Below are positions 32,646-55,300 of a DNA stretch of 64,000 bases, in pieces. Location: NCBI RefSeq assembly GCF_015351475.1, contig NZ_JADKPR010000002.1:248001-312000 (forward strand), written 5' to 3'. This DNA is from Flavobacterium sp. HJJ (GTDB lineage Bacteria; Bacteroidota; Bacteroidia; Flavobacteriales; Flavobacteriaceae). The translations under genes and the position numbers were made by a program. The notes beneath the pieces are model-generated. The model searched no databases. It was not told the DNA's origin and saw only the letters and a program-made list of their open reading frames with translations. Every line of letters begins with the position of its first letter. The stretch's first letter is position 1.

Positions 32646-32680
32646 TAAAATTCCTGATTATTTAGTATTCAGGAATTTAA
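32646..32680 (-). terminator. Hairpin at the end of the PUL
   Basis: AAATTCCTGA (32648-32657) pairs perfectly with TCAGGAATTT (32669-32678). The hairpin overlaps the stop codon of the last PUL gene; the T run behind it is weak. Confidence 0.5.
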
Positions 32681-33638: not shown

Positions 33639-33700
33639 GTTTTATTGGTTTGGGTTTTAGCTTGTCATTCCTATGGAAGAGTAATGACTGACTTTTGTTT

Positions 33701-34858: not shown

Positions 34859-34916
34859 TTTTTTATCATTGTGAGGAATGAAGTAATCTCATTCTCTGGT
34901 TTAAAAATTTTTCTAA

Positions 34917-35945
34917 TTATTTAGATGGAATTGCCAATTTTGTTTCTTCGCTTACTGGTTCTCCCAAAACCGGAAATCCATTAGAATCCCAGTTAATTTT
35001 CTGCATTCTGGGCGATCTTTTGTTACCACATCCTTCTCCAGGGTTTGAATTGGCGTGGTACAAAATCCAGTCTTCTTTCCCATCAGGAGATTTAAAAAAT
35101 GAATTATGTCCCGGAGCATACACTTTATTTTTATCTGATTGTTTAAAAATAGGTTCTGCCGATTTTTTCCAGGCCGAAGCATCTAATAAATTATCTCCTC
35201 CGTTAAAACTCAGTAATCCCAAAGAATAAAAATCTGTCCAGCATCCACTGGCCGAAAATACGATGAAAATTTTATCATTTTTTGACAAAAACTGAGGCCC
35301 TTCATTCACATTTACCTGCGGAGGATTCACATCATCATGCAGTGCGCCATGCGTTTCCCAATCGTTTAAAGGTGAAGAAATTTTTACACGGTCACCGTCA
35401 ATTTCAAGCGGATTCTTCATTTTGGCGATATAAATATTCTGCTGTCCGTTTGTATCGCCTTCCCAGCCAGCCCAGATTATATACAGCTGGTTTTTATGTT
35501 CAAATATGTTTCCGTCAATGGCCCATTTGTCAGTTTTGGCAGCGATTTTTCCTTTAAATTCAAATTTTCCTTTAAATGGATCAGACGATTTATTTTCCAA
35601 AACATACATTCTGTGCTTGTTGTTGTCTCCGTTGTCAGCAGCAAAATAACAGTACCATTTTCCATTGATAATATGAAATTCCGGTGCCCAGATTTCTGCC
35701 GAATAATCAGTGTTTTTTGGCGGTGTCCAAATTACTTTGCTTTCGGCATTTTTTATATCGGATAAATCTTTTGTTTTCCATAGAACCAAACGGTTTCCAA
35801 GTGTATTGGTGTAATAATAATATCCTTTATAATAGGTGCTGTAAGGATCTGCGCCTGATGGCAGAATTGGATTTGTGAATGTTTTCTGCTGGGAATATCC
35901 AACAGATATAATTGCTAAAAGAAGGAAGATTGCTGTTTTTTTCAT
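34917..35945 (-). CDS. GH43 family arabinofuranosidase-like hydrolase, secreted
   Basis: 342 residues with a Sec signal peptide (about 1-19) and no lipobox. GH43 triad: D33 in PSGADPYS, D144 in WAIDGNIF, E215 in VNEGPQFL. The opening FTNPILPSGADPYSTYYKG and the block IWAPEFHIINGKWYCYFAA resemble exo-alpha-1,5-L-arabinofuranosidases of subfamily GH43_26 (from memory). This is the main reason to suspect an arabinan-type substrate. Starts 12 nt after the GH2 stop. Confidence 0.88.
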   Translation of the reverse strand: MKKTAIFLLLAIISVGYSQQKTFTNPILPSGADPYSTYYKGYYYYTNTLGNRLVLWKTKDLSDIKNAESKVIWTPPKNTDYSAEIWAPEFHIINGKWYCYFAADNGDNNKHRMYVLENKSSDPFKGKFEFKGKIAAKTDKWAIDGNIFEHKNQLYIIWAGWEGDTNGQQNIYIAKMKNPLEIDGDRVKISSPLNDWETHGALHDDVNPPQVNVNEGPQFLSKNDKIFIVFSASGCWTDFYSLGLLSFNGGDNLLDASAWKKSAEPIFKQSDKNKVYAPGHNSFFKSPDGKEDWILYHANSNPGEGCGNKRSPRMQKINWDSNGFPVLGEPVSEETKLAIPSK

Positions 35946-35957
35946 CTCAGTTGTATT

Positions 35958-37778: not shown

Positions 37779-37913
37779 GCTGTATATTTTTTGGGCAGTC
37801 ATTTAATGTGATGCCGTTATGTTTTTTTTTAAATCAAAATGAATTACCAGACTTATATTCGCATAAGCCTGGTAATTGCTAATCAAACTCAACTAACCAA
37901 TTTTTATGTTTTT

Positions 37914-39665: not shown

Positions 39666-39666
39666 C

Positions 39667-40719
39667 TTATTTTTTTGAATTTAAGTTTTTGGTCAAGCCA
39701 AATTTTTTCACCAAAGCGTCATATTCATTTCGTGAAATTGTAATCATACAGCCGTGGCGCACTTTTTCAGGGAGACTGTATTTGTCCCAATTGGAGAAAA
39801 AGGTGTAACCTGAAGCTTGAAACCAAGGTCCGTTTAGGTTATCTGCAATTGATAATCCGTATGAAACACCAGGATATTGTTCGTAATACATGTACCAAAT
39901 TTTATCATCAGGAGAAGGAATCAGCATTGGGGCCTCTCTAAAGTTTGGACTGATTGATTGCTGGGGCAAAGAATAAGGTCCTAATAATGATTTTGATTTG
40001 GCAATTCTAATCGTTTTTCCGGTTGTCCAGTATAAGGTTGGGTACTTTTCATCTTTGATTACTGCGTAGTAGGAATCGCCGATTTTACGAATGAATACAT
40101 CGATGGTTCCCATATCCCAATCGAATAGACGGTTTGGAGTTCCTTCGAAGGTTTTTAAATCTTTGGATAAAACATATAAAGTTCGTTGGCTCGCCCAATA
40201 GCGTTCCCCATCTTCCTTAGTTCCTTCAAGATGTGGAGTGTGCCACGTCATGATGAATTTTTCAGAATCTTTGTCGTAATACAGTTTTGGGGCGCCAATT
40301 CTTTGTAAAGCATTTGAATAACCAGGCGTACTTTTTAAATCAGGAGTGTAATCGGAATGTTTTTTCCAGGTAATCAAATCGTCCGAAACCCAAATGTTTA
40401 TGCTTTTGGCATCATCACCTGTGTTTCCTGCGATATAGTATTTTCCATCGGGTCCTTTGCAGATGTCGGGATGACCTTTGTATTCTTCAAAAACACGTTT
40501 TCCATCATTCAGGTTTTCCCAATGCAAACCGTCAAGACTCACAGAATAATATAATCTGCCGTAATCATTGTGTGTCATGTGTGCAAAAAGATAGGCCTCG
40601 TTTTTAGGTTTTTCGTTTCCTTTCACCTGCCCGGGAGGATCCGGCTGTTGTGCATTTGCAGAAAATCCTATCAGAATTACTGCTAAAAAAAAGAGTTGTT
40701 TTATTGTGTTTTTTTTCAT
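39667..40719 (-). CDS. GH43-like five-bladed propeller hydrolase, secreted
   Basis: 350 residues. Signal peptide ending SANAQ (about residue 24). Clan GH-F/J-like triad: D85 in KGHPDICKG, D207 in GTIDVFI and E262 in FREAPMLI, with propeller repeats such as YYSVSLDGLHW and NIWVSDDLITWKK. Distant from the other two GH43 proteins here; an unclassified GH43 or a related furanosidase is possible. It starts after a stem-loop at 40769-40834 and is tightly linked to the BNR gene. Confidence 0.75.
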   Translation of the reverse strand: MKKNTIKQLFFLAVILIGFSANAQQPDPPGQVKGNEKPKNEAYLFAHMTHNDYGRLYYSVSLDGLHWENLNDGKRVFEEYKGHPDICKGPDGKYYIAGNTGDDAKSINIWVSDDLITWKKHSDYTPDLKSTPGYSNALQRIGAPKLYYDKDSEKFIMTWHTPHLEGTKEDGERYWASQRTLYVLSKDLKTFEGTPNRLFDWDMGTIDVFIRKIGDSYYAVIKDEKYPTLYWTTGKTIRIAKSKSLLGPYSLPQQSISPNFREAPMLIPSPDDKIWYMYYEQYPGVSYGLSIADNLNGPWFQASGYTFFSNWDKYSLPEKVRHGCMITISRNEYDALVKKFGLTKNLNSKK

Positions 40720-40748
40720 GTTGCTAAAAGTTTTGGAAGTTTTCTCGC

Positions 40749-40834
40749 CACGAATTCCACTAATTGTTTTTTGCCACAGATTACACGGATTAAAATGATT
40801 TAATCTTTTTTTAATCTTTTAATCTGTGGCAAAA
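40749..40834. repeat. Inverted repeat/hairpin inside the PUL
   Basis: TTTTGCCACAGATTA (40769-40783) and TAATCTGTGGCAAAA (40820-40834) are perfect 15-base inverted arms; CACGAATTCCACTAATT (40749-40765) precedes them. It joins the words of the repeats at 2571 and 32482. Placed between the GH5-like and GH43-like genes, it could also act on mRNA stability or read-through. Confidence 0.7.
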
Positions 40835-40865
40835 TAATTTTCTAATTATCAAATTGACACATTAT

Positions 40866-42038
40866 CTAATTCTTCTTATTTGCTTCCGAAGTCATTTTTT
40901 TGATCAAATCGGTTTCGGCTTGAATGTATGGTGTTCCGTCAGTATGCAGTACTTCGTGAAACCAAAGTTTTGGTTCAGCAGTATATGTTTTTGTCCAGCT
41001 GTCCCAAGCGTATTTTGTCTGAGTTTTTCCGTCAACAAATCCCCAGTTAATCATACCGACATTGTATTTTCTGGCAATTGGAAGGAATCCTTCGAAAGTG
41101 CTTCCGTTTGGTCTCGCCATATATTCTGAACACAATAATGGTTTTCCGTAACGCTGTAATTGTTTGATCACTTTTTCGAAATCCTGCGGTGTGTTGTAGT
41201 TATGGAATGAAACAATATCCGATTGTTCGATCTGCATTTTGTGCATTGGTGCCATTTTTGTTTCGTCGCTCCAGTCACCAACCCAAACACCTGAAGTCAG
41301 AGGCTGAGACGGATTGCTTTCTCTTGCCCACGCAAAAACATCTTTTAAAAGAGGAAGGATCAAATCGGCTTTGTTTTTAATTTCAACTTTTTCATAAGAT
41401 GGTCCCGTCATATTATCCGGTTCGTTCCAAACGTCCCAGCCTAAAATACGTTTGTCGTCTTTAAATTTTGCAACCGTTTCTTTTACATATTTCTCTAATC
41501 GAGGATATTGTGTTTTGTCCTGAAGCGCTTTTTGTCCCGGACTCTGAACCCAGCCTGAGTTGTGTGTGTGTGGTTTTGGATCACGCTGTTTCCCTAAAGC
41601 AGGAAACGGATCCCAGCAGGAATCAAATAAAACAAAAAGCGTTTTGATATGGTGTTTATCTGCAATTTCTAAAAAAGTGTTCATGCGTTTGTAAAGACCT
41701 TCTGCATCTTGCTGGTGTAATAAATCGTGTAGATAGACACGCATTACATTCATGCCAAGGCCTTCTGCCCAGCCTAATTCCTGATCAATTCTTTTTGGAT
41801 CAAAAGTGGCTGACTGCCACATCTCTAACTGATTTATAGCTGTGCTAGGAGAATAATTTGAGCCTACTAACCAAGGCTGTTCTGCATACCATTTATTAGC
41901 TTGATCCTTGGTCCAGATTTCTCTTTTTTCGATAGATGCTGTTTCATTTTTATTTTCTTCAGAATTATTTTTTTTGTTGCAGCTAAGCAATGCCAGTCCT
42001 GCTAACATAAATGTCAGATACAATTTTACTTTCTTCAT
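40866..42038 (-). CDS. GH5-like (clan GH-A) glycoside hydrolase, lipoprotein
   Basis: 390 residues from the ATG at 42038 (in-frame ATGs at 42044 and 42062 are alternatives). Lipobox LLSC-NK (cysteine 20). TIM barrel with acid/base E206 in DVWNEPD and nucleophile E305 in LLCSEYMARP, the clan GH-A pattern. Also seen: NVMRVYLHDLLH and FVLFDSCWDPFP. Often labelled 1,4-beta-xylanase or cellulase-family in databases, but the true specificity is unknown. Follows susD by 83 nt. Confidence 0.82.
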   Translation of the reverse strand: MKKVKLYLTFMLAGLALLSCNKKNNSEENKNETASIEKREIWTKDQANKWYAEQPWLVGSNYSPSTAINQLEMWQSATFDPKRIDQELGWAEGLGMNVMRVYLHDLLHQQDAEGLYKRMNTFLEIADKHHIKTLFVLFDSCWDPFPALGKQRDPKPHTHNSGWVQSPGQKALQDKTQYPRLEKYVKETVAKFKDDKRILGWDVWNEPDNMTGPSYEKVEIKNKADLILPLLKDVFAWARESNPSQPLTSGVWVGDWSDETKMAPMHKMQIEQSDIVSFHNYNTPQDFEKVIKQLQRYGKPLLCSEYMARPNGSTFEGFLPIARKYNVGMINWGFVDGKTQTKYAWDSWTKTYTAEPKLWFHEVLHTDGTPYIQAETDLIKKMTSEANKKN

Positions 42039-42121
42039 TGTCATTTTTGTTATTTTGAACAATTGTTCTTTATGATAAGGGAATCAGATAAGTGGCATCT
42101 GATTCCCTTAAAAAAATAATT

Positions 42122-43648
42122 TTAATATTCAGGGTGTTGTTTTAAGTTTGGGTTGTTTTCTACCTCAACTTGTGGAATTGGCAATCTTTGATTTTTACCA
42201 ACTACGAAGTTTTTGAAATCAGGGTCACGAAGTGCAATTTTGTCAACAGAAGCTTGAGTATTCAAATCTCCCCAGCGTTTTAAATCTTCCCAGCGAACAC
42301 TTTCTCCGGCTAATTCTAAAACTCTTTCTATTTTCAAGCGCTCTAAAAATTTATCATGATCGTTTCCGATTTCAGGATGAGCAGATGCCAGTGTATTCAT
42401 GTTTACACGTGCTCTAACCATATCTACATATTGATATGCTTGTGCTGTATTTCCAGTTTCATTTAAAACTTCGGCATAACGCAATAAGATATCAGCATAA
42501 CGGATTAGTCTGTAGTTTACCTGACTGTAATAATCTTCATTGTTTCTGTAATAATCTCGGGCACCTTTTCTGAACCAGGCTTCGTTGTTGTTCCATTCCC
42601 AGTTTTTACCGTAAGTTTTATCTCCAAAATCAGCTTCTAACTCTGGATAAAACAAAGTATATCTCAATCTGACATCCAGGTTTCCAGTTTTGTTTTTCTC
42701 TTGTTTGAAGGCATTTACTAACCAAAAACGAGCCTGACCATCTGACCATCCAATACTTCTTGGTGCAAAAAATTGAGCACGGTTGCTTGAAACGGCAGCA
42801 CTTTGACTTTCGTCAGTTCCGCCTTTTCTTTGATCTCCAAACTGAATTTCAAAAACAGATTCGCTGTTGTTTTCATTTGCATCTGTAAAGTTGTCTCTGT
42901 AGTTTGAAACCAAACTGTACTTTGCACCAGCTCCGGAAATTAAATATTCCAAAGCCGATTTTGCTTCAGGCCATTTGTGTTGCTGCATGTATAATTTTGC
43001 TAAAAATGCTTTTGCTGCACCTTTATCAGGTCTTCCTGTTTGATCTGAAGCCCAATCTGCAGGCAAATCAGCGAAAGCCTCATTTAAATCTTTTTCAACC
43101 TGAGCCCATACTTCGGTCACATTTTTTTGTTCCGGAAGGTCATTTGGCTGTGAAGGAGTCAAAACGATTGGAATATTTTCCCAAAGAATAGAAGCATAGT
43201 AGTAGTGCAGGGCTCTTAAAAACTTGGCTTCGGCTAAAATTCTCTTTTTGTTTTCTTCATTTTGAAAAGGAATGTTTGGAACATTTGCTAAAACCTGATT
43301 ACATCTGAAAATAGCTTTATAAGTATCTCTCCAAGTAACCACGTTTCCTTCCCAGAAATTGTAATTGATGTAATTAAATCTGGTCCAGTCTGCAAGTTCA
43401 ATCCACGGGCTGTTGCTGTAACCTTCATCAGAGGTTAAATCCAGACGGAAGTAAATCCATCTTGCCCATAATCCATCTTTATAAAACATGGCATAAATGG
43501 AGTTTACTCCTGCCTGTGCATCACTTTCGGTTTTCCAATATTGTTCTGTTGTCAGAGCATTTGGATTGTCAAGATCTAATTCTTTTTCACATGAAGCGGT
43601 GAAGAAAAGACCCGTAAAAACTGCTATTATTAATACTATTTTTTTCAT
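42122..43648 (-). CDS. susD: SusD/RagB family glycan-binding lipoprotein
   Basis: 508 residues. Lipobox TASC-EK (cysteine 20). Typical opening LDLDNPNALTTEQYWKTESDAQAGVNSIY, TPR-like helices around LRALHYYYASILWENIPIVLTP, and a C-terminal block RYADILLRYAEVLNETG ... RLKIERVLELAGESVRWEDLKRWG. It captures oligosaccharide at the surface and forms a lidded complex with the SusC barrel encoded 18 nt upstream. No family member is needed elsewhere to complete the pair. Confidence 0.96.
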   Translation of the reverse strand: MKKIVLIIAVFTGLFFTASCEKELDLDNPNALTTEQYWKTESDAQAGVNSIYAMFYKDGLWARWIYFRLDLTSDEGYSNSPWIELADWTRFNYINYNFWEGNVVTWRDTYKAIFRCNQVLANVPNIPFQNEENKKRILAEAKFLRALHYYYASILWENIPIVLTPSQPNDLPEQKNVTEVWAQVEKDLNEAFADLPADWASDQTGRPDKGAAKAFLAKLYMQQHKWPEAKSALEYLISGAGAKYSLVSNYRDNFTDANENNSESVFEIQFGDQRKGGTDESQSAAVSSNRAQFFAPRSIGWSDGQARFWLVNAFKQEKNKTGNLDVRLRYTLFYPELEADFGDKTYGKNWEWNNNEAWFRKGARDYYRNNEDYYSQVNYRLIRYADILLRYAEVLNETGNTAQAYQYVDMVRARVNMNTLASAHPEIGNDHDKFLERLKIERVLELAGESVRWEDLKRWGDLNTQASVDKIALRDPDFKNFVVGKNQRLPIPQVEVENNPNLKQHPEY

Positions 43649-43666
43649 TACGCGATTTTTTAAAAA

Positions 43667-46600
43667 TTAGAAGCTAAATTCAACACCAAATGAATACGTC
43701 TGTAAATTTGGGAAAGCCCCATTGTCAACACCTCTTTCAAAAATGTTACCGTTACTGAACTCAGGATCTAATCCTTTGTATTTAGTAATTGTAATTATAT
43801 TTTGTGCAGATAATGTCAATCTAGCTCTTGTAATTCCAGATTTTGCCAAAACACTGCTTGGAAGATTATATCCAAACCCAATATATTTTAGACGGATAAA
43901 ATCACCGTTTTCTAAAAATCTGTCGCTGTCTCCTCTTGAGTTCAAAGTTGTTCCTTTTACAATTCTTGGGAAATCAGTATTTGGATTTTCAGGAGTCCAA
44001 GGCTGGATTCCTCTTCTGTAGTTACTGTCATCATCAAAACGGTCTACAACACTTCTGAATCCGTTATAAACAGTTGCACCGTGAGAAGCAATCCAGTTCA
44101 TAGAGAAATCAAATCCTTTGTATTCTGCTCCTGCATTGAATCCCATTTCAAATTTCGGCCAAGGACTTCCAACGATGTCTTTGTCTTCGTTTGTAATTTC
44201 TCCGTCACCATTTACATCTTTAAAACGGATATCTCCCGGCTGTGCATTTGGCATAATTACTTTTCCTCCAGCATTTTTGTAACTGTCAATTTCCTGTTGA
44301 TTCTGGAACAAGCCATCTGTTTGTAAAACATACCACATACCTACTGGATTTCCGGCACGGGTGATAGTATTTCCCTGAATGCTTTCGTTTTGTCCGTTTC
44401 CTAATGAAACCAGTTTGTTGTTTACTTTTGTAAAGTTGACTGATGCATTGAATGAAAAATCATTGATTTTTTTGCTATATGCCAATTCTAATTCGAAACC
44501 TTTATTTTCAACAGTTGCAGCATTTGAAATTGGATTTCCGCCATCATTACCTGTTGTGAATAAAATTGGGAAACCAAATAATACATCTTCTGTACGGGCA
44601 ATAAAGTAATCTCCTGTAAAACGTAAATCGTTCTTGAAGACACCTAAATCAACACCCACATTGGTTTGTTTTAATTTTTCCCAGCGCAATTGCGAATTTG
44701 CCAGTCTTACCTGAGCAGCAGATGGATACAATGTTTGTCCGTCTCCCAGAACGATAGCTCCATTAGTATTGATGAAACCTTGATATTCGTAGTTTCCAAT
44801 ATTTCCAGAACCTAATTCTCCATAACTTACTCTGGCTTTTAAATCGCTGATAAGTTCTGATTTAAAGAAAGGTTCGTTGCTGACTCTCCATCCTGCGGAT
44901 ACGGAAGGAAAATTACCCCATTTGTTTTCATTGCTGAATTTTGAAGAACCATCACGTCTGAAAACAGCGTTGAACAAATAACGGTTGTCATAATTGTATT
45001 CTAATCTCCCTAGGTAAGAAGTCAAAGCAGCTTCATTTCTAAATCCGCCGACTTCCGGTGAATTTCCTAAATCCAAAACATCAAAATACTCGCCTGTACT
45101 TGGGTTTACCAAAAGATTCCTCTTTGTTCCATTAATCTGATTGTAATTATCTTTTTGGAATGTTTGCCCAACTAAAGCCGTAATACTGTGTTTTCCGAAA
45201 TCCTTTTTGAAGTTTAAAGTATTTTCATAAAGCAATGTTTCAGATCTTCCTTTGTTTTGGTTGATGAAAGACTGCTCATAAGGCTGATTTAATGTCCAGT
45301 TTCCTAATTTTCTCATGAAATTATAGCTGTCAAAGCTGGTTTCATATCCAAAATTGAAACGGTATTTCAGCCATGATGCCAATTTTAATTCAGACCAGAT
45401 ATTTCCTCTGATTCTGAAATTTTCGTTTGTCGCATTAGCAAAATCAGCAAGAGCCAGCGGGTTTGTACCAAATGTATTGGCAACACCTTGTTTACCGTAA
45501 CCATATCCTCCAGGATTGCTTGCATCGTGAACTGGAATTGTAGGTAGTAATCTGTACACATCAATAATTGGAGCTCCAGACATTTCATCTGTTTTTGCGT
45601 TGCTGATGGCTAAGTTTTCTCCAATGCTGAAAATTCCTTTTGTTCCGCTTGAATTTACCCTGAATGAGATTCTGTCGAAATCAGTTCCTTTAACTGTTCC
45701 TTCATTCCCGAAGTAATTTCCTGACATGAAAAATGATGAGTTCTCATTTCCTCCAGAAAAACTTGCATTATAATCCTGAATCATACCCGTTTTGAAAACT
45801 TCGTTCTGCCAGTCTGTGTTTACTGCCATATTTAAGTTTTGTCTTGGTATTCCGGCATTATCATAAGCCATGTTGTTGTATTTTGCAAATTCTTCAGTTC
45901 CCATTAAATCATAACGAGGCATTGTAGTAAAACTGGTTTTTGCTGAAACTTCAATCTTAAGCGGTCCTTTTTTACCTTTTTTAGTAGTAATGATAATTAC
46001 CCCGTTTGCAGCTCTGGAACCATAAATAGCAGCTGCCGACGCATCTTTCAAAACCTGAATGCTTTCTATATCATTAGGATTAAAATCTCTGTTTGCTGTA
46101 GTTACTAAACCATCAATTACATACAGTGGATTGGAACTCTGAAGATTTTTCAGACCGCGAATTTCAATATTAGCTTCCTGACCCGGACGTCCGCCGCCAC
46201 GAACCTTAACGCCGGGAACCGTACCTTGAAGTCCCTCTGCAACTGTTGTAATTTGGCGTTTTTGAATTTCTGTAGTTTTTACCAGTGAAACAGCTCCAGT
46301 AAGGTCTTTTTTGTGCTGTGAACCGTATCCGACAATTACTATTTCATCGAGTTTTGTAGTAGCTTCACCTAAAGTTACATTAATAGTAGTTTGGTTATTA
46401 ATACTGATTTCTGTTGTTTTAAATCCCTGTGAGCTAAAAACTAAAGTCTGGTTTGAGCCTGCTGTGATTTTATAACTTCCGTCAAAATCAGTTACTGTGC
46501 CGTTTTTTGTGTCTTTGATTTTTACATTGGCAAATGGAATCGATTCTCCGTTTGCAGCGGTAACTTTACCCGTAATGGCAGTTTGCTGCTGGGCATACGT

Positions 46601-46675
46601 TTGCTGTAATAATAAACTAAAGAAAAACAAGAGGTAATATCTCTGCTTTAAAATTTGAGTGAACTTTGTTTTCAT
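43667..46675 (-). CDS. susC: SusC/RagA family TonB-linked outer membrane transporter
   Basis: 1002 residues. Signal peptide (about 1-28, ending TYAQQ), carboxypeptidase-regulatory-like domain (about 32-105: ITGKVTAANGESIPFANVKI), the SusC linker LDEIVIVGYGSQHKKDLTGAV, plug (about 120-230: GLQGTVPGVKV, IEIRGLKNLQSSNPLYVIDG) and a 22-strand barrel ending in an aromatic residue (SFGVEFSF). Imports oligosaccharides into the periplasm using TonB energy. First gene of the PUL transcript, divergent from the hybrid regulator. Confidence 0.96.
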   Translation of the reverse strand: MKTKFTQILKQRYYLLFFFSLLLQQTYAQQQTAITGKVTAANGESIPFANVKIKDTKNGTVTDFDGSYKITAGSNQTLVFSSQGFKTTEISINNQTTINVTLGEATTKLDEIVIVGYGSQHKKDLTGAVSLVKTTEIQKRQITTVAEGLQGTVPGVKVRGGGRPGQEANIEIRGLKNLQSSNPLYVIDGLVTTANRDFNPNDIESIQVLKDASAAAIYGSRAANGVIIITTKKGKKGPLKIEVSAKTSFTTMPRYDLMGTEEFAKYNNMAYDNAGIPRQNLNMAVNTDWQNEVFKTGMIQDYNASFSGGNENSSFFMSGNYFGNEGTVKGTDFDRISFRVNSSGTKGIFSIGENLAISNAKTDEMSGAPIIDVYRLLPTIPVHDASNPGGYGYGKQGVANTFGTNPLALADFANATNENFRIRGNIWSELKLASWLKYRFNFGYETSFDSYNFMRKLGNWTLNQPYEQSFINQNKGRSETLLYENTLNFKKDFGKHSITALVGQTFQKDNYNQINGTKRNLLVNPSTGEYFDVLDLGNSPEVGGFRNEAALTSYLGRLEYNYDNRYLFNAVFRRDGSSKFSNENKWGNFPSVSAGWRVSNEPFFKSELISDLKARVSYGELGSGNIGNYEYQGFINTNGAIVLGDGQTLYPSAAQVRLANSQLRWEKLKQTNVGVDLGVFKNDLRFTGDYFIARTEDVLFGFPILFTTGNDGGNPISNAATVENKGFELELAYSKKINDFSFNASVNFTKVNNKLVSLGNGQNESIQGNTITRAGNPVGMWYVLQTDGLFQNQQEIDSYKNAGGKVIMPNAQPGDIRFKDVNGDGEITNEDKDIVGSPWPKFEMGFNAGAEYKGFDFSMNWIASHGATVYNGFRSVVDRFDDDSNYRRGIQPWTPENPNTDFPRIVKGTTLNSRGDSDRFLENGDFIRLKYIGFGYNLPSSVLAKSGITRARLTLSAQNIITITKYKGLDPEFSNGNIFERGVDNGAFPNLQTYSFGVEFSF

Positions 46676-47065
46676 TGATTTTTCATTTTAGATAGTTTTC
46701 AATTTTTGGTTGGTTTTACAATAAATAATTAAAATTTTAATCATCTCTGATTCGGGCAGAAAAATAATTGACTCTGCTCGTAAAGAATAATGTGTTCATT
46801 TTGGTTTAAAATTATATTTGATGTTTTTTTTCAAATTAAATTTTACAGATAGTATATTTTTTAAGCCTAAAAATTATCGATATCATTTATTTGAAAATTC
46901 AAAGTAGGTGATTTTAATTCAAAATAAAATGCTTCATTTGTGTCAATATTTATCTCAAATGGTTCAAATTGTATAAAAAAGACCAGAAAAATAAGGGCTT
47001 GCAACATTTGGTAGAATATTGACACGATTTGATTAGATCTATTTTTATTATAAAAAAATATAACG
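46676..47065. other. Divergent control region susC/hybrid regulator
   Basis: 390 bases. No perfect TAnnTTTG box was found on either strand, which is in keeping with activator-dependent PUL promoters. The inverted repeat at 46940-47025 is the only strong structure. Confidence 0.6.
46940..47025. promoter_or_regulatory. Candidate operator pair upstream of the hybrid regulator
   Basis: GTGTCAATATT (46940-46950) and AATATTGACAC (47015-47025) are perfect 11-base inverted copies about 64 bases apart, 40-126 bases before the regulator ATG. They may be binding half-sites for the regulator's AraC domain; this is inference. Confidence 0.4.
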
Positions 47066-50000
47066 ATGCGTAAATTCTTTCTTTTTACATTTTTATTCTT
47101 TTTTTCGATAAATTTTATCGAGGGTCAGGAATATTATTTTAAACATTTTCAGGTTGAAGAAGGACTTTCTAATAACACTGTTTTAGCTTCAGCACAAGAC
47201 GAAGACGGTTTTATGTGGTTTGGCACAAAAGACGGTCTGAACCGATTTGACGGATACCGTTTTAAGACTTATAGAAGCCAGTCTGACCCGATTCACAGTC
47301 TGGGAAGCAATTATATTCAGTCAATTCACGCTTATAAAGGAGTGATTTGGGTAGGAACAGATAAAGGTTTGTACCAATACAATAAGAAGACCGATAAGTT
47401 TATGGTTTTGAACGAAGCTATAAATGACAGGATAAATGATATCAATCACGATAAAAAAGGGAATATCTGGTTTGTATCCGGCAGTATTCTTTATAAATAT
47501 TCGACTTTGAGCAAGGAGACCAAAACCTTTAATCCAAATAAATATTTTGTGACGACCTCTATTTCAAGAGATGAAAATGGTGAAATATGGGCTTCATCAT
47601 TAAATAAATTATATCATTACTCTGAAGAAAGCCTTTCATTTGAAAATGTTGCTATAAATCCGCCGGCTAATAAAGCCAGTTTTAGGATTACATCTATTTA
47701 TGCTTTTAATAAAAATACAATTTTAATTGGAACGCAGGATCATGGCGTATTGGTATATGATTTAAAAAGCAAAACCACATCGTCACTGCAATTTGCCGGA
47801 AAAGATCCGGTTTTTGTTCGTCAGTTTAAAAAACGTGGCAACGATGAGGTTTGGATTGCAAGTGAATCGGGTGTTTATGTTTATGATTTTAAAACTAAAA
47901 GAAACATCAATCTTAGAAAAAATTATAACGATCCTTATGCTATTTCAGATAATGCTTCCTATTCGATCACGATCGATAAAGAAAACGGAGTCTGGATTGG
48001 AACCTACTTTGGCGGTATCAACTATCATCAAAAACAATATACCCAATTTAAAAAGTATTTCCCTCAGAAAGGTCAAAACTCGATAAGCGGGAGCGCAGTC
48101 AGAGAAATTCACAAAGACGATCAGGGCGATCTCTGGATTGGTACCGAGGATTCGGGCTTGAACCGTTTTAACCCGAGGACGCAGACTTTTACTTCCTATT
48201 TACCGAACGGGAGCAAAAGTGGCATTTCGTATTATAACATTCACGCTTTAATGCCCAGAAAAGATAAGATTTGGGTGGGGACTTTTGAGCATGGTCTCGA
48301 TATTCTGGACCGAAAATCGGGAAATGTAATCAAACATTATAGTGCCAATGATCCTTCGACCGGTTTGCGAAGCAATTTTATTTTTTCATTTAGCGAATTG
48401 CAGAACAAAGATCTCATTGTAATTACTACGATGGGGCTTTACCGTTACAATGAACAAAAGGATTATTTTGATATTTTGAAGACATTTCCGGAAACGGTTC
48501 ATTATACTACTTTCAAGGTTGACAGTGAAGGGAATTACTGGGCAGGAAGTTACAGGGATGGGTTGTTTTTTTATAATCCAAAAACGAGAAAAAAAGAAGT
48601 ATTTATCTCTGATTATAAAAATCCAAATAGCATCAGCAATAATTCTATCAACTATATTTTTGAAGACAGTTCGAAAAATTTATGGATTGCGACTGAAAAT
48701 GAATTGAATTTATTTGATAAGAAAACCCGAAGCTTTAAAAAGTTTACAACCAAAAATGGCCTTCCGAGTAATGTTGTTTATTCGATTTTGGAAGAGGCCA
48801 ATAAAAATCTGTGGCTGACCACTTCTAAAGGGCTGGTGCAATTCAGTCCGGATCATAAAAGCATCAAAATTTATACTACTGCAAATGGCTTGTTAAGCGA
48901 TCAGTTTAATTATGCATCAGCTTTTAAGGATTTAAACGGCGATATGTATTTTGGGAATCTAAACGGAATGATCAGTTTTAATCCAAAGAATTTCACTAAA
49001 AATAAATATACGCCTTCTATTTTCATTACCAATCTTCAAATTAATAATAAAGATGTCGATCCAAATGAAAATGATTCTCCTATAAAAGAGTCGGTTTCGC
49101 ATATTGATGAATTAGAACTTGATAATAATCAGTCGTCATTTAATATTGAATTTGCGTCGCTCAATTATACTGCGCCCGAACTTACAGAATATTGGTATCA
49201 GCTTGAAAACGTAAACAAAGACTGGGTTTATCTTGAGCGAAACAATAAAGTCTTTTTTACGGAACTGGCTCCGGGTAATTATGTTTTTAAAGTAAAATCA
49301 TTAAACAGTTTTGGGGTTTGGAGCAAAGAGATAAAATTAAAAATCAGGATTCTGCCTCCATTTTGGGCGAGTTCGTATGCTTATTTTTTCTATCTTTTAT
49401 TGATTTTAGGATCGTTTTACTATATCATCCGTTATTCGCAAAACCTGACTCAGATCAAAAATAACCGCAAGATCAAGCATTTGAATGACGAAAAAGAAAA
49501 AGAAATTTATCAGGCTAAAATTGATTTTTTTACCAATGTTGCGCACGAGATCAGAACGCCTTTAACACTTATAAAAGGACCGTTGGAAAAACTTTTGGCA
49601 ATGGATTATCAGTCTGCCGAAGTTCCTCAGAACCTTTCTATAATGAAGAAAAATACTTCCAGATTACTAAAACTGGTGAATGAATTATTGGATTTCAGAA
49701 AATCTGAAATTGGGGGATTGAAACTTACTTTCGTAGAAGCCAATATTTCTTCACTAGTTAGAAATCTGCATTTAAGGTTTACGCCGCTTATTGAAGAAAG
49801 AGGAATTGACTTTGAACTGGCATTAGGCGAGAGAGACATTTTTGCTTTTGTTGATAAAGAAGCTTTCAAAAAAATCCTTAGTAATTTAATAAACAATGCT
49901 ATAAAATATTCTAAAGATAAGGTTTCAATAACGCTTTTCAGAGATGAAAAAAAACTGACTCTGATCGTTAAAAATGATGGAAATCTGATTCCGTTTCAGC

Positions 50001-51016
50001 TCAAAGACAAAATCTTTGAACCCTTTTTCAGAGTTGATAATACTGATAATTCGTCTGGAACAGGAATCGGTCTTTCGCTGGCACATTCGCTGGCACAACT
50101 GCATAATGGAAATCTGCAGTTGCTTGCCAATGTTAAATGGAATGTTTTTGAGCTTACTGTTCCATTGCATCAGGAAGAAGAATTTATGCTTTACACTGAT
50201 TCAGAAAAGGAACCGAGCCAGTCTGAGTCTGAAATAGCCGAGTCCGAGACAAAACTCGAAAAACCTCAAATTTTAGTGGTTGAAGACAATCTGGATCTTT
50301 TAAATTTTATTACTGCCGAAATGGTTTCAAATTATACTGTTTTGAAAGCTGAGAATGGTGAAGACGCATTGAAAATCATTCATAACGAAAATATTCAGCT
50401 CGTTATAAGCGATGTTTCAATGCCTGTTATGGACGGAATTACAATGTGCAAAGAGATTAAGACAAATTTAGAAACCAGTCATATTCCAGTTATTCTGCTA
50501 ACGGCCAAAAACTCGCTTAAATCACAGATAGACGGCTTGGAAGTTGGTGCCGACGCTTATATAGCCAAACCTTTTTCGACGGATTATTTAAAAGTTCAGG
50601 TTAATAATCTGATTGAAAACAGAAGGCAGATTATGAATTATTACGCAAGTTCGCCTCTTTCGCACATCAAGAGCATTGCGCATAATAAGACTGACGAAAA
50701 ATTCCTGAAAAAACTCGATGAAGAAATCCTTAAAAACATAGTCGATCCTGATTTAAGTGTAGAATCTCTGGCAGAAATAATGAACATGAGCCGTTCAACT
50801 CTGTATAGAAAAATTAAAGACATTTCAAATCTGAGTCCGAACGAGCTGATTAATATTGTACGTTTAAAAAGAGCCGCAGAACTGCTTTTGAACGGAAATT
50901 ACAAAATGTATGAAATTGCCGAAATGGTAGGCTATAGATCACAGACGAGTTTCGGCAGAAATTTTCAAAAACATTTTTCGATGTCGCCATCTGATTATAT
51001 CGCGATGAATAAATAA
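47066..51016 (+). CDS. Hybrid two-component system sensor/regulator of the PUL
   Basis: 1316 residues in one chain. Signal sequence, then a periplasmic double beta-propeller of Reg_prop repeats (about 25-670: DGFMWFGTKDGLNRFDGY, GVWIGTYFGG, KNLWIATE), a Y_Y_Y domain (about 690-760), one membrane helix (about 770-790), histidine kinase with H827 in AHEIRTPLTLIKG, an ATPase domain (NLINNAIKYSKD, GTGIGLSLAHSL), a receiver with D1116 in VISDVSMPVMDG, and an AraC-type DNA-binding domain (about 1215-1316). It senses an oligosaccharide in the periplasm and activates the divergent susC operon. Confidence 0.96.
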   Translation: MRKFFLFTFLFFFSINFIEGQEYYFKHFQVEEGLSNNTVLASAQDEDGFMWFGTKDGLNRFDGYRFKTYRSQSDPIHSLGSNYIQSIHAYKGVIWVGTDKGLYQYNKKTDKFMVLNEAINDRINDINHDKKGNIWFVSGSILYKYSTLSKETKTFNPNKYFVTTSISRDENGEIWASSLNKLYHYSEESLSFENVAINPPANKASFRITSIYAFNKNTILIGTQDHGVLVYDLKSKTTSSLQFAGKDPVFVRQFKKRGNDEVWIASESGVYVYDFKTKRNINLRKNYNDPYAISDNASYSITIDKENGVWIGTYFGGINYHQKQYTQFKKYFPQKGQNSISGSAVREIHKDDQGDLWIGTEDSGLNRFNPRTQTFTSYLPNGSKSGISYYNIHALMPRKDKIWVGTFEHGLDILDRKSGNVIKHYSANDPSTGLRSNFIFSFSELQNKDLIVITTMGLYRYNEQKDYFDILKTFPETVHYTTFKVDSEGNYWAGSYRDGLFFYNPKTRKKEVFISDYKNPNSISNNSINYIFEDSSKNLWIATENELNLFDKKTRSFKKFTTKNGLPSNVVYSILEEANKNLWLTTSKGLVQFSPDHKSIKIYTTANGLLSDQFNYASAFKDLNGDMYFGNLNGMISFNPKNFTKNKYTPSIFITNLQINNKDVDPNENDSPIKESVSHIDELELDNNQSSFNIEFASLNYTAPELTEYWYQLENVNKDWVYLERNNKVFFTELAPGNYVFKVKSLNSFGVWSKEIKLKIRILPPFWASSYAYFFYLLLILGSFYYIIRYSQNLTQIKNNRKIKHLNDEKEKEIYQAKIDFFTNVAHEIRTPLTLIKGPLEKLLAMDYQSAEVPQNLSIMKKNTSRLLKLVNELLDFRKSEIGGLKLTFVEANISSLVRNLHLRFTPLIEERGIDFELALGERDIFAFVDKEAFKKILSNLINNAIKYSKDKVSITLFRDEKKLTLIVKNDGNLIPFQLKDKIFEPFFRVDNTDNSSGTGIGLSLAHSLAQLHNGNLQLLANVKWNVFELTVPLHQEEEFMLYTDSEKEPSQSESEIAESETKLEKPQILVVEDNLDLLNFITAEMVSNYTVLKAENGEDALKIIHNENIQLVISDVSMPVMDGITMCKEIKTNLETSHIPVILLTAKNSLKSQIDGLEVGADAYIAKPFSTDYLKVQVNNLIENRRQIMNYYASSPLSHIKSIAHNKTDEKFLKKLDEEILKNIVDPDLSVESLAEIMNMSRSTLYRKIKDISNLSPNELINIVRLKRAAELLLNGNYKMYEIAEMVGYRSQTSFGRNFQKHFSMSPSDYIAMNK

Positions 51017-51102: not shown

Positions 51103-51447
51103 TCAATTTGAAATAATCAGATAATTGATTTCAACCGGTTTCAGTATTTTGTCTTCGCTGACACAATCGACCAAAAAGCGCAGTTCTTCCAGTTCTTTTC
51201 TGTTGAGCAGAATAATAAAATTAGACTGCAGAGTAGGAATTGGAATTTTCTTTTCATAAATGGAATTTTTATATTCCCTTTCCCAATAATCAATGTCAAT
51301 CTGATCGATATAATTGGCAAAACTAGTCATTTCAATGCCGCTCAAGTCAAAGGTAAGATTATTGAACAGCAGCTGATACATATCTCTATGCTGACAAAAG
51401 AGCAAAATGCCATTTGAAGTCCGGTTTAATACTTTTAGATTGCACAT
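51103..51447 (-). CDS. Conserved hypothetical protein (DUF6686-like)
   Basis: 114 residues, cytoplasmic, no signal or membrane segment. Begins MCNLKVLNRTSNGILLFCQH, then MYQLLFNNLTFDLS and a C-terminal part IPIPTLQSNFIILLNRKELEELRFL. The pattern resembles DUF6686, a Bacteroidota-only family of unknown function, but I rely on memory for that name. A helix/strand regulator-like fold is possible. Convergent with the hybrid regulator. Confidence 0.6.
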   Translation of the reverse strand: MCNLKVLNRTSNGILLFCQHRDMYQLLFNNLTFDLSGIEMTSFANYIDQIDIDYWEREYKNSIYEKKIPIPTLQSNFIILLNRKELEELRFLVDCVSEDKILKPVEINYLIISN

Positions 51448-51564: not shown

Positions 51565-52476
51565 CTATTTAATGACAAATGAATCAATGATTGCATCAAC
51601 TTCTGCTTGCGTTGCAGTTGGTTTTAAATCAAATAAAAGAGAGAAAAGTGATTTCTTGTTTACTTTATTCTGCAGCGATAAATCTTTATTGCTGCCATAA
51701 ACTTTCTCCCATTTGCTTCTCACTTTTGCCCAGACTTCCTTATTGTTTTTCCACCAGTTTTGTGCCAATAGACATTTGCTGTCTTCCACTTTAGTATAAA
51801 CATCAAATCCTTTTTCTTCGGCCAATAGATAATCTTTTCCGCTTTCGTCCCTTACTAGTTTTTGATTATCCTGCTCGTGATTCCAGCCGGTAGGGGTGAT
51901 TTCGTGAATGTTTCTTCTTTTTAGAACGTTGTAATCGTTTCTTTTAGTGTGTTCTCTTCTTGGCAGCGGTGCATCAGCGGTGTTTAGCCAATAGTTTTTC
52001 CCGTCAATATGTGCCCAGCTTGAAGAGCCTTCGTATCTCGGACTGTCATCCACCTGATATACTTTTTGTGACCATTGTCCTTTTACGTTTTTGGCTGTCA
52101 ATTTGTTAAACTTCCACGTATTGTCTTTGTAAAAAGAATATAAATCGGTGTTTTCATAAAGCCAGTCCTGTCTCCAGTGCTTTACAATGTCGTTTTCTCC
52201 CTTCCCAACAATTAACAAATGCTGTAATACTATTTTGCTGGGTTTGTCCTCCAGTAATTCTATCCATTCAAGTGCAGATTCATGTTTTGTTTCTGATGGT
52301 TTGTAGCTGGCAGAATCTTTTGGATACTTGAAAGTTTCAGTGAAGTTGAATTTTACTTCATAGCAGCCACACATTGACTTGATGGCTTTTATGTCTTCTT
52401 TTTTAGCGTCTTGACTGAATCCAATAAGGCTTGTAATAGTCATTAATACAGTTAGATAAGTCTTTTTTGTGTTCAT
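51565..52476 (-). CDS. DUF6607 family secreted protein
   Basis: 303 residues with a signal peptide (about 1-21, ending GFSQ). Family pattern: IKSMCGCYEVKFNFTETF, then KHWRQDWLYEN, WSQKVYQVDDSPRYEG, ADAPLPRREHTKRNDYNVLKRRN and TPTGWNHEQDNQKL. Rich in W, H and Y, which would suit haem or metal contact, but this is inference. It is divergent from the haem receptor gene with both -7 boxes in a 107-base gap, so co-regulation is likely. Confidence 0.82.
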   Translation of the reverse strand: MNTKKTYLTVLMTITSLIGFSQDAKKEDIKAIKSMCGCYEVKFNFTETFKYPKDSASYKPSETKHESALEWIELLEDKPSKIVLQHLLIVGKGENDIVKHWRQDWLYENTDLYSFYKDNTWKFNKLTAKNVKGQWSQKVYQVDDSPRYEGSSSWAHIDGKNYWLNTADAPLPRREHTKRNDYNVLKRRNIHEITPTGWNHEQDNQKLVRDESGKDYLLAEEKGFDVYTKVEDSKCLLAQNWWKNNKEVWAKVRSKWEKVYGSNKDLSLQNKVNKKSLFSLLFDLKPTATQAEVDAIIDSFVIK

Positions 52477-52507
52477 AATTGGGTTTTTATTTTTAAAAAT
52501 TTTTTGA

Positions 52508-52515
52508 CAAATATA
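52508..52515 (-). promoter_or_regulatory. -7 promoter box of the DUF6607 gene
   Basis: Minus-strand TATATTTG, perfect, 31 nt before the ATG at 52476. Confidence 0.5.
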
Positions 52516-52519
52516 TTAA

Positions 52520-52539
52520 ATTTATTTAGAATAAATAAA
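52520..52539. promoter_or_regulatory. Candidate iron/haem operator between divergent promoters
   Basis: ATTTATT-TAG-AATAAAT (52520-52536) is a perfect 7-base palindrome with a 3-base spacer, placed exactly between the minus -7 box (52508-52515) and the plus -7 box (52548-52555). A repressor bound here would block both. AT-richness makes chance symmetry possible. Confidence 0.35.
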
Positions 52540-52547
52540 AATAACTA

Positions 52548-52555
52548 TATATTTG
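52548..52555 (+). promoter_or_regulatory. -7 promoter box of the haem receptor gene
   Basis: TATATTTG, perfect, 28 nt before the ATG at 52584. Confidence 0.5.
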
Positions 52556-52583
52556 CAATGCTTATTAAGATTAAATAAAAATA

Positions 52584-54650
52584 ATGAAACATAGAATTAC
52601 TTTCTTTTCTGCTCTCCTTTTTTATCAGATTTCTTTCGCCCAGCAAAAGAAAAAAGATAGTATTCAAACTAATGAATTGTTAGAGGTAATGGTGGTTACA
52701 GGAACAAGAACAGAGAGAGTTCTTTCGTCATTGCCGTTACCGATGACCATAATTACTTCGGCAGAAATTGCTAAAACTGGCGTAACGAGATTGAATGAAA
52801 TTTTAAATGAGCAGACAGGAATTATCCTGATTCCGGACGAAAGTGGTTTTGAGGGTATTCAGATGCAGGGTTTAGATTCGGCTTACACGATGGTTTTAAT
52901 TGACGGCGTCCCTTTGGTAGGAAGAAGTGCTGGAATTCTGGATTTGTCAAGAGTTTCTGTTGGAAATATCGAAAGAATTGAGATTGTAAAAGGAGCTTCA
53001 TCTGCTTTGTACGGTTCCGAAGCCATGGGCGGAGTGATTAATGTCATTACAAAAAAGCCGAAGAAAGATATGTTTTCGGGCAGTCTTTCTTATCGATATG
53101 CTTCTTTTAATACTAATGATGCTAATGCAAATCTTCTTTGGAAAAAGAAGAAGTTTTCGGCTAATTTGTTTGCTAATTTCTATTCCTCTGACGGATACGA
53201 TTTAGATAAAAGTACGCCTTTAAAAAATCTCGAAAATTTTTACAATTATACCATTCAGCCCAAGCTTTACTATGATTTTTCAGAAAATCTAAAGCTGATT
53301 GTGAGCAATCGTTTCTATAATCAGAAAATGGATAACGTTGCCATAATTGATGCTGAAAATTACAAAGGAGACGCAGCAGAAAACGAATGGAATTCCCAAG
53401 TAAAATTGGAACACAAATGGAATTCAAAACTCTATTCAGAATATGAATTATATGCCACTAATTATAAAAATGATTCGTTTTTGAATGATGAAAACGATGT
53501 TCTTTATGATAAAACCTACTATAATCAATGGCTTTTTCGACCAGAAGCCAGAACAACTTTGGCAATAAATAATGACAAGCTTACTGCTGGAATAGGACTG
53601 AATTATGAAACTTTGGACAGAACTTATTTTAGTAAAAATGTAGAATTCACTTCTGAATATGTTTTTGTGCAATACGATTGGAATCCAAGCGAAAAATGGA
53701 ATATTCTTGCGGGATTTAGATATGATAATCACAGTGAATATGCCTCGCAGTTAAGTCCAAAATTAGCCGTAAATTATAAAATCAATACTGATTTTTCTGT
53801 AAAAGGATCTGTTGGTTACGGTTACAAAGCGCCTGATTTCCGCCAGCTGTATTTTGATTTTTCTAATCCGTCGGTTGGTTATACGGTTTTGGGCTATAAT
53901 GTTGCTGAAGATCGTTTGAATCAATTGGATGCTGAAGGCCAAATTTTGAAAAGAGTAGAAGGGATCAGTTTTAATACTCCATTGGAAGCCGAAAGTGCCG
54001 TGAATGTCAATTTTGGAACTTTTTACAAAAGAAACAAACTGAAAGTTGATGCAAACGCATTTTACAATTCGATAAGTAATTTGATTGATACGAGAGTGGT
54101 GGCTCAAAAAAACAATAGCCAGAACGTTTTTAGTTATTTCAATGTCAGCGAAGTTTTTACTTATGGATTAGAATTTAATTCGGCCTATAATTTTACCAAT
54201 GAATTTTCTGCATCATTTGGTTATCAATATTTGACTGCGAAAGACAAATCGGTTGTCGATAATTTTGAGAATTATCAATACATCAGAAATGCTGAACTGC
54301 AAACCATTAAAATTAATAAATCGGATTATTTCGGTTTGTACAATCGTTCGAAACATACTGCCAATATTAAAATGGCATACACGATTCCGAAAATAAAAAC
54401 AGATGTCAATCTGCGTGTTTTTTACCGAAGCAGATACGGTTTGTATGATACTAATGGAAATCAGATTCTGGACAAACACGACACTTTTGTAGATGATTAT
54501 TTTACAGCTAATTTATCTGTTTCAAAATACATAACAGACAAAATACTATTTCAGGCTGGTGCCAATAATTTACTTAATTATACCGATCCAAGTCAGATTC
54601 CAAACCTTTCCGGAAGACAGCTTTTTGCACGAATTCAATACAATTTTTAA
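52584..54650 (+). CDS. TonB-dependent receptor, HmuR-like
   Basis: 688 residues. Signal peptide (1-19, ending ISFAQ), TonB-box region LLEVMVVTGTRTERVLSSLP, plug (about 45-155: GITRLNEIL-type segment, VLIDGVPLVGRSAG, IERIEIVKGASSALYGSEAMGGVINVIT) and a long barrel ending FARIQYNF. No carboxypeptidase-like domain precedes the plug, unlike SusC. The HmuY gene 26 nt downstream indicates haem uptake. Start supported by the -7 box. Confidence 0.9.
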   Translation: MKHRITFFSALLFYQISFAQQKKKDSIQTNELLEVMVVTGTRTERVLSSLPLPMTIITSAEIAKTGVTRLNEILNEQTGIILIPDESGFEGIQMQGLDSAYTMVLIDGVPLVGRSAGILDLSRVSVGNIERIEIVKGASSALYGSEAMGGVINVITKKPKKDMFSGSLSYRYASFNTNDANANLLWKKKKFSANLFANFYSSDGYDLDKSTPLKNLENFYNYTIQPKLYYDFSENLKLIVSNRFYNQKMDNVAIIDAENYKGDAAENEWNSQVKLEHKWNSKLYSEYELYATNYKNDSFLNDENDVLYDKTYYNQWLFRPEARTTLAINNDKLTAGIGLNYETLDRTYFSKNVEFTSEYVFVQYDWNPSEKWNILAGFRYDNHSEYASQLSPKLAVNYKINTDFSVKGSVGYGYKAPDFRQLYFDFSNPSVGYTVLGYNVAEDRLNQLDAEGQILKRVEGISFNTPLEAESAVNVNFGTFYKRNKLKVDANAFYNSISNLIDTRVVAQKNNSQNVFSYFNVSEVFTYGLEFNSAYNFTNEFSASFGYQYLTAKDKSVVDNFENYQYIRNAELQTIKINKSDYFGLYNRSKHTANIKMAYTIPKIKTDVNLRVFYRSRYGLYDTNGNQILDKHDTFVDDYFTANLSVSKYITDKILFQAGANNLLNYTDPSQIPNLSGRQLFARIQYNF

Positions 54651-54676
54651 TTAACCCTTATTTAAACACTTTTACA

Positions 54677-55300
54677 ATGAAAACAAATTTTTTAAAACTT
54701 TCGATTTTAGCCTTGACACTTTTTATCGCATCGTGCAGTAATGATGATAATGATCCAATACCTGCTGTAGTAACTCAAAAATTTTCTAATCTTTATGCAC
54801 CGCAGACAGGTGGACAAGCAGTACCAGCGGGTGGCGAATTTACAAAATTCAGTTTTTCTGAAAACAAAGTTGTAGCCAATGATAATTGGGATATTGCTTT
54901 CCGAGGAACGACTATAATCGTAAATGGAGGAGCTAAATACAATGCCGCAGATGCAGGTGAACCAGCGAGAACAGGATCAGGATTAGTAAGTTCTGTTTCT
55001 GGAACATTTGCTAGTGTAACTACTTTTCCAGTGGCAACTAGTTTTAAAGCAGATGCAACTTCAGTTTATGCAATTCCTACAGGAAGCGGAAATGGTTGGT
55101 ATTCGTATAATTCAACAACACACATTATTTCGGCTATTGCAGGAAAAGTATTTGTGGTAAAAACGCATGATGGCAAGTATGCAAAATTCGAAATCTTAAG
55201 TTATTATAAAGATGCGCCTGTAACACCAGATGCTACATCTGTGTCGCCTTATTATACTTTTAATTTTGCTTATCAGGCAAATAGTACAACGACATTTTAA
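54677..55300 (+). CDS. hmuY: HmuY family haem-binding lipoprotein
   Basis: 207 residues. Lipobox IASC-SN (cysteine 20). HmuY fold signature: KFSFSENKVVANDNWDIAFRGTTIIVNGG, WYSYNSTTHIISAIAGKVFVVKTHDGKYAKFEILSYYKDAP and a closing YYTFNFAYQ. Described HmuY proteins capture haem at the cell surface and pass it to the HmuR receptor encoded upstream. I did not assign the haem ligands; one His (in KTHDGK) and one Met are possible. Confidence 0.88.
   Translation: MKTNFLKLSILALTLFIASCSNDDNDPIPAVVTQKFSNLYAPQTGGQAVPAGGEFTKFSFSENKVVANDNWDIAFRGTTIIVNGGAKYNAADAGEPARTGSGLVSSVSGTFASVTTFPVATSFKADATSVYAIPTGSGNGWYSYNSTTHIISAIAGKVFVVKTHDGKYAKFEILSYYKDAPVTPDATSVSPYYTFNFAYQANSTTTF

Follow-up and report, generated by a model that had tools for sequence, protein, structure and literature searches.

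A probable iron-controlled haem-scavenging locus in Flavobacterium sp. HJJ joins a RhuH-family protein to a TonB-dependent receptor and HmuY

Introduction

What does a secreted protein of the family DUF6607 contribute to a locus that it shares with a TonB-dependent receptor and HmuY, and why should these genes diverge from one short promoter region? This question is raised by a locus of Flavobacterium sp. HJJ (assembly GCF_015351475.1, contig NZ_JADKPR010000002.1) lying in a 64,000-nt stretch of DNA (positions 248,001 to 312,000 of the forward strand), hereafter called the window. An initial annotation, made from the sequence alone, had presented DUF6607 as a protein of unknown function that may take part in haem uptake or haem sensing. 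Our analysis indicates that the locus is very probably an iron-starvation haem-scavenging unit, made up of a Fur operator, a RhuH-type haemophore, and a TonB-dependent receptor with HmuY.

Results

Homology and predicted fold place DUF6607 in the RhuH haemophore family

Searching the PDB with DUF6607 returned a single strong match, entry 8xjc, described as a haemophore (profile E value 5.9e-119), with homology extending over residues 14-303 of the window protein, that is, 290 residues (single-sequence phmmer E value 3.3e-96). This entry is the crystal structure of RhuH of Riemerella anatipestifer, published in 2025 as a secreted haemophore (PMC11967795). An AlphaFold2 model computed with the window protein plus 34 relatives as input, with a mean predicted local distance difference test (pLDDT) of 89.9 and a predicted template modelling score (pTM) of 0.85, superimposed on 8xjc with a Z score of 35.0 and a root-mean-square deviation (rmsd) of 2.3 over 274 aligned residues at 53% identity (template modelling scores 0.83/0.90). 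In the phmmer alignment, His96, the iron ligand of RhuH, pairs with His100 of the window protein, and the modelled propionate contacts Arg143, Tyr144, Arg170, Arg183, and Gln198 pair with Arg147, Tyr148, Arg174, Arg187, and Gln202, respectively. None of the six haem-contact residues varies among 110 distinct DUF6607 proteins, a set that includes the window protein and leaves out two of the 35 members of the genome sample described below, G088 and G270 (contig end). Judged by full-length homology, the same modelled fold and the same ligand set, the window protein is a member of the RhuH haemophore family. A second histidine, His86 (motif QHLL), is likewise identical in the 110 homologues; the RhuH model in PMC11967795 has one protein ligand only for the haem iron. 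The description of DUF6607 as rich in Trp, His, and Tyr goes as far as inspection by eye, with 10 Trp columns being invariant among 35 aligned proteins.

According to PMC11967795, R. anatipestifer needs RhuH to grow normally on duck haemoglobin or haemin when iron is limiting, and complementation relieves the haem-use defect of the rhuH deletion. RhuH is released in outer-membrane vesicles, and was found in the medium and vesicles but not in whole-cell extracts. It binds haemin 1:1 (Soret band at 407 nm) with a dissociation constant of 3.44e-11 M, and in recombinant form it can remove haem from haemoglobin; when His96 is replaced, binding becomes weaker by roughly six orders of magnitude. Haem extraction extends to the homologues of R. 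columbina, F. columnare, and F. soli, and rhuH diverges from rhuR-rhuA across 122 bases that hold a Fur-controlled bidirectional promoter with a Fur box (PMC11967795). The haemophore function of the DUF6607 family is therefore already known, under the name RhuH: the proposal of a haem uptake component was right but in print, and the label of unknown function no longer applies. In the literature searched, RhuH as a haemophore appeared nowhere beyond PMC11967795, and the names DUF6607 and DUF6686 (a neighbouring gene family treated below) were not found.

The barrel core of the DUF6607 model (residues 22-233 at most) also resembles nitrobindin and bilin-lyase barrels, with Z scores of 8.7-10.4 at 3-6% identity. 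The matches comprise the CpeS bilin lyase 4tq2 (Z 10.4, rmsd 3.6, 145 aligned residues), Ycf58 (3bdr, Z 10.2), nitrobindins (Z 9.9 to 8.7), Rv2717c (2fr2, Z 9.3), and a CRL protein (6lix, Z 9.3), while fatty-acid-binding proteins score lower (Z 6.3-7.0). The CpeS, Ycf58, nitrobindin, Rv2717c, and CRL families bind tetrapyrroles, a description that stems in part from PDB entry titles. Since two spirocyclases (Z 9.9) and a designed barrel (Z 9.0) score like the tetrapyrrole barrels, common ancestry with the nitrobindin/CpeS barrels is not shown, and Pfam revealed no sequence match of DUF6607 to families of this type. The reading of DUF6607 as a CpeT/CpcT bilin lyase, suggested by resemblance, was discarded: 21 members gave no Pfam match at E values up to 10, in a search whose filters drop most weak matches, and the 50 structure matches listed contain CpeS, nitrobindin, and CRL entries instead of any named CpeT/CpcT, which is no proof of absence. 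The RhuH structure is called unique in PMC11967795, which nowhere uses the terms nitrobindin, lipocalin, calycin, or phycobili-.

DUF6607 genes lie mostly at haem loci

We surveyed an even set of 395 genomes of the phylum, among which DUF6607 occurs in 35, HmuY in 132, and DUF6686 in 41. The genomes with DUF6607 belong to the genus of the window (15, its own included), to its family (5), to other orders of the class (10), and to other classes (5). Most DUF6607 genes were found with haem genes rather than away from them, HmuY lying within 5 kilobases (kb) in 29 of the 35 genomes, on the opposite strand in 22 and on the same strand in 7. At the level of whole genomes, HmuY is present in 33/35 DUF6607-positive versus 99/360 of those lacking DUF6607 (Fisher p 3e-15, with no correction made for kinship).

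Gene order was compared in the best 80 of 563 loci, which are mostly from Flavobacteriaceae and so illustrate close synteny, breadth being given by the 395 genomes. In these loci, HmuY, the receptor, DUF6686, and DUF6607 were recognized by profiles grown from the window proteins; one receptor with a plug domain escaped these profiles. No more than 5 kb separates DUF6607 from HmuY in 76 loci and from a TonB-dependent receptor in 78, and in 74 the gene directly upstream is a divergent receptor; two of the four loci without HmuY (L085 and L100) stop at a contig end. The window's arrangement recurs in F. johnsoniae (L046). On these linkage counts, in genomes and loci alike, DUF6607 is in the main a haem-locus family.

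A conserved Fur-like box lies between the two divergent promoters

The divergent gap measures exactly the 107 bases first reported, and both predicted -7 boxes (TAnnTTTG) are present, one towards each gene (Table 1). The motif occurs in both directions in 77 of 79 divergent DUF6607-receptor gaps, window included, as compared with 1.1% of mononucleotide shuffles, a comparison that rules out a chance promoter; gap length falls between 102 and 106 bases in 42 of them. Alignment of 70 gaps of similar length uncovered a third, central conserved block, which in the window is the Fur-like operator of Table 1. A Fur box of R. anatipestifer has been published with gel shifts, the hmuR promoter among them (PMC5609570), and against this box the operator ranks first among all sites in the 64 kb window. 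It matches at 15 of the 18 scored positions, a score that 33 of 5000 dinucleotide-shuffled versions of the gap also reach. When the best score of each of the 79 gaps was averaged, the result was 14.6, versus 11.8 in shuffles. The second site in the gap is one of 17 in the window that score 13, and is hence rated weak.

Elsewhere in the genome, the identical 19-mer of the operator recurs at two places, both in a cluster on contig 26 that encodes TonB-dependent receptors and PepSY proteins and includes an ApbE gene. Five genome sites have at most two mismatches, and four of these precede iron- or haem-related genes, namely those for glutamyl-tRNA reductase, a peroxidase as large as a catalase-peroxidase, a pyridine-nucleotide oxidoreductase, and a class-V aminotransferase that by eye resembles SufS. 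The 107-base gap thus looks like an apparently iron-controlled promoter common to DUF6607 and the receptor, and the impression of one regulated unit gains support from the conserved Fur-like box, since a single putative operator sits between two promoters. As a separate observation, the best Fur-like site of the genome (17/18; contig 25, L143:3278-3296) lies between the glutamyl-tRNA reductase gene and a divergent reading frame, which suggests iron control of haem synthesis.

A PepSY-flavin cassette and DUF6686 accompany some DUF6607 genes

Downstream of DUF6607 and in the same orientation, 21 of the 80 loci have a cassette of three genes, which encode a secreted protein with ankyrin repeats, a DUF2271 protein, and a PepSY-flavodoxin-NAD reductase (domains assigned by Pfam on L106). 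L106:8901-13089, from Polaribacter sp. DS7-9, is an example. DUF6686 comes next after the cassette in 6 of the 21. The full cassette was present in 1 of 18 long loci from across the phylum, and three loci of a distant lineage carry a flavodoxin after DUF6607. DUF2271 counts among the proteins that ApbE flavinylates, and a role as iron reductases has been proposed for PepSY clusters (PMC8238504; PMC12004947). The flavinylation motif [S/T]GA[S/T] was found in 15 of 23 DUF2271 proteins from these loci, as against 17 of 190 open reading frames of 140-200 aa, a control set that includes the 23 and thus leaves 2 of 167 others; the eight DUF2271 proteins without the motif mean that flavinylation is not uniformly supported. 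The window's genome holds the same cassette on contig 26 (L141:10393-14791), under the identical Fur-like operator and with the ApbE gene and a motif-bearing DUF2271. The text of PMC11967795 contains no occurrence of PepSY, flavodoxin, or ankyrin.

DUF6686 lies within 5 kb of DUF6607 in 16 of the 80 loci, and 14 of its 43 places in the 395 genomes are within 5 kb of a listed HmuY, a count to which unlisted weak HmuY places could add. Its model (pLDDT 81.0, pTM 0.68) gave no Foldseek match at E ≤ 0.001, and the structures closest to it, entries for Pur-alpha and DUF155, scored Z 7.4, which the tool counts as common. A conserved CxxC motif considered for this family was dropped, as it is not invariant.

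Taken with the barrel resemblance, these gene orders allow a tentative and rather doubtful proposal, namely that RhuH is a tetrapyrrole barrel of the nitrobindin/bilin-lyase type turned haemophore, which in many Flavobacteriaceae other than Flavobacterium heads an ankyrin-DUF2271-PepSY-reductase operon, at times with DUF6686. Haem capture would there be wired to a flavin chain reducing haem or haem iron outside the cytoplasm, and DUF6686 might be a further haem-use part.

The same cassette bears on an alternative for DUF6607 itself, which may chiefly be a periplasmic haem carrier or reservoir instead of an extracellular scavenger, receiving haem from the receptor and delivering it to a reductase or the inner membrane, with vesicle release being incidental. 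The 21 loci would fit such a role, as their ankyrin, DUF2271, and PepSY-reductase genes make up a module for electron transfer outside the cytosol that has been linked to iron reduction (PMC8238504), as would the fact that DUF6607 displays a signal peptide only (by eye) and no Pfam sorting domain. No cassette, however, adjoins the window locus, the copy in this genome being on another contig, and the reported location of R. anatipestifer RhuH in medium and vesicles, along with its stripping of haemoglobin (PMC11967795), argues for work outside the cell, which renders a mainly periplasmic role unlikely.

Layout of the locus and neighbouring genes

Pfam recovered DUF6607, the TonB-dependent receptor, and HmuY where the initial annotation had placed them (Table 1). 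HmuY scores 48.2 bits, above the PF14064 gathering cut-off of 27, and a DUF2490 match on the receptor was weak, below its own cut-off, and disregarded. The unit extends past DUF6607, the DUF6686 gene lying 117 bases downstream, and neither of these two proteins matched any NCBIfam model at E values up to 0.1.

Table 1. Features of the haem locus, in window positions
Feature	Position	Strand	Evidence and remarks
DUF6686	51103..51447	-	PF20391, E 3.8e-39; 114 aa; no signal peptide by eye; downstream of DUF6607, same strand
DUF6607 / RhuH-type haemophore (predicted)	51565..52476	-	PF20311, E 2.7e-98; 303 aa; N-terminal signal peptide by eye
Divergent promoter region, 107 bases	52477..52583	.	Sequence; elements conserved in 79 divergent gaps
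-7 box TATATTTG towards DUF6607	52508..52515	-	Sequence; motif in this direction in 77/79 gaps
Fur-like operator ATTTAGAATAAATAAAAAT	52524..52542	.	Between both -7 boxes; 15/18 versus the published R. anatipestifer Fur box
-7 box TATATTTG towards receptor	52548..52555	+	Sequence; motif in this direction in 78/79 gaps
Second, weak Fur-like site, 13/18	52564..52582	.	Directly before the receptor ATG; region partly conserved in relatives
TonB-dependent receptor (HmuR/RhuR/HfpR type by context)	52584..54650	+	PF00593, E 1.6e-34; PF07715, E 2.9e-22
HmuY-family protein, probably lipoprotein	54677..55300	+	PF14064, E 1.7e-12; lipobox by eye

Next to the haem unit, positions 32658-51016 hold what by eye resembles a polysaccharide-use locus, with glycosidase-like and SusC/SusD-like genes. 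It closes with a hybrid two-component regulator (47066-51016), the regulator domains of which were recognized by Pfam.

Discussion

How, then, would the locus work? When iron is low, Fur would leave the single operator between the two divergent promoters, one transcript yielding the RhuH-type haemophore and the other the TonB-dependent receptor with HmuY. The haemophore would be exported by its signal peptide, in Riemerella leaving in outer-membrane vesicles, and would take haem from haemoproteins, the iron being held by one histidine, here presumably His100, and the propionates by the Arg/Tyr/Gln cluster inside the beta-barrel. Haem would then pass to surface HmuY or straight to the receptor, a hand-over order that PMC11967795 also leaves open. 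Experiments in relatives have demonstrated haem binding, haem extraction, the part played by the histidine, control by Fur, and the growth defect, which would apply here by analogy; from the window and its relatives come the gene set, conservation of the ligands, the predicted fold, the putative operator, and the genomic linkage. On both we infer that the organism of the window makes the same use of the unit, with the hand-over as outlined.

Several observations weigh against this scavenging role. Six of the 35 DUF6607 genes have no linked HmuY. One of these loci is cut by a contig end (G270), two have a TonB-dependent receptor within 1.2 kb (G138 and G246), and one has a divergent TonB plug-domain protein (G355); in the remaining two, from one genus (G375 and G359), profiles found neither HmuY nor a TonB-dependent receptor near DUF6607 within the stretches searched. 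The window receptor scores 149.8 bits against the haem receptor model TIGR01785, under its curated cut-off of 316.85, so that the haem label rests on HmuY and context; the protein is a TonB-dependent receptor by Pfam, and haem by context only. Fur-like sites with at most three mismatches number 39 in the whole genome versus 24 for a reversed control, which makes a lone site weak evidence, as more than half of those at three mismatches may be chance, and the fifth site with at most two mismatches falls inside a reading frame. Finally, iron coordination in RhuH comes from an AlphaFold3 model plus mutation, with no holo crystal, and duckling virulence was unaffected by rhuH deletion (PMC11967795).

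The two loci where neither partner was found also suit the possibility that linkage reflects chance or lineage and that DUF6607 has another cargo. In G359 (L003) the DUF6607 neighbour is a heavy-metal-associated protein by Pfam; as further observations, G375 (L002) has a similar one by eye, and its HmuY, TonB-dependent receptor, and DUF6686 are at a separate locus (L112). The survey, moreover, did not correct for kinship, and 15 of the 35 positives are from the window's genus. However, linkage survives differences in gene order and orientation (22 opposite, 7 same strand) across several families and another class, and the haem contacts are invariant throughout the 110 proteins, which leaves another cargo very improbable.

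As for the haem-sensing role initially suggested, the divergent arrangement with a shared promoter is one that some regulator-target pairs adopt, but Pfam finds no DNA-binding or membrane domain in DUF6607. A sensor that regulates the receptor is accordingly hardly credible, with Fur explaining control in Riemerella, a complemented deletion phenotype of defective haem use, and published data that describe a haem scavenger (PMC11967795), and nothing that we found points to signalling.

With the scavenging unit as the preferred reading, the barrel resemblance, the PepSY-reductase cassette, and the recurrence of DUF6686 are what we add to the published picture. The remaining interest lies first in the name, since DUF6607, still of unknown function in Pfam, becomes a named haemophore family, and then in its distribution, which in 35 of 395 genomes, 10 from other orders and 5 from other classes, goes past the Flavobacteriales stressed in PMC11967795. 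The possible coupling of haem capture to flavin-based iron reduction offers a testable link, and DUF6686 emerges as an unstudied neighbour.

Among known systems, HmuY-HmuR of Porphyromonas gingivalis similarly pairs an HmuY-family protein with a TonB-dependent receptor, but its transcript is longer and also covers a CobN/magnesium-chelatase-like protein as well as membrane proteins (PMC9331221). HfpR-HfpY of Flavobacterium psychrophilum also combines such a receptor with an HmuY-like protein, co-transcribed under iron scarcity, and differs by a DoxX gene between the two; the passages of PMC9331221 consulted mention no RhuH/DUF6607 partner. RhuH shares 7.69% identity with HmuY (PMC11967795). 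Nitrobindin and CpeS-type phycobiliprotein lyase barrels align with the barrel core of the model, and RhuH has an extra helical C-terminal part. The closest counterpart is RhuH/RhuR-RhuA of R. anatipestifer, with 53% identity in the structural alignment, the same haem-contact residues, and a divergent layout with receptor and haem-binding protein. There too a bidirectional promoter carries a Fur box, in 122 bases as compared with 107 here, and the operator lies 25 and 78 bases from the start codons as compared with 47 and 41 in the window (PMC11967795). The partner gene is RhuA in R. anatipestifer and a recognizable HmuY in the window, where DUF6686 follows.

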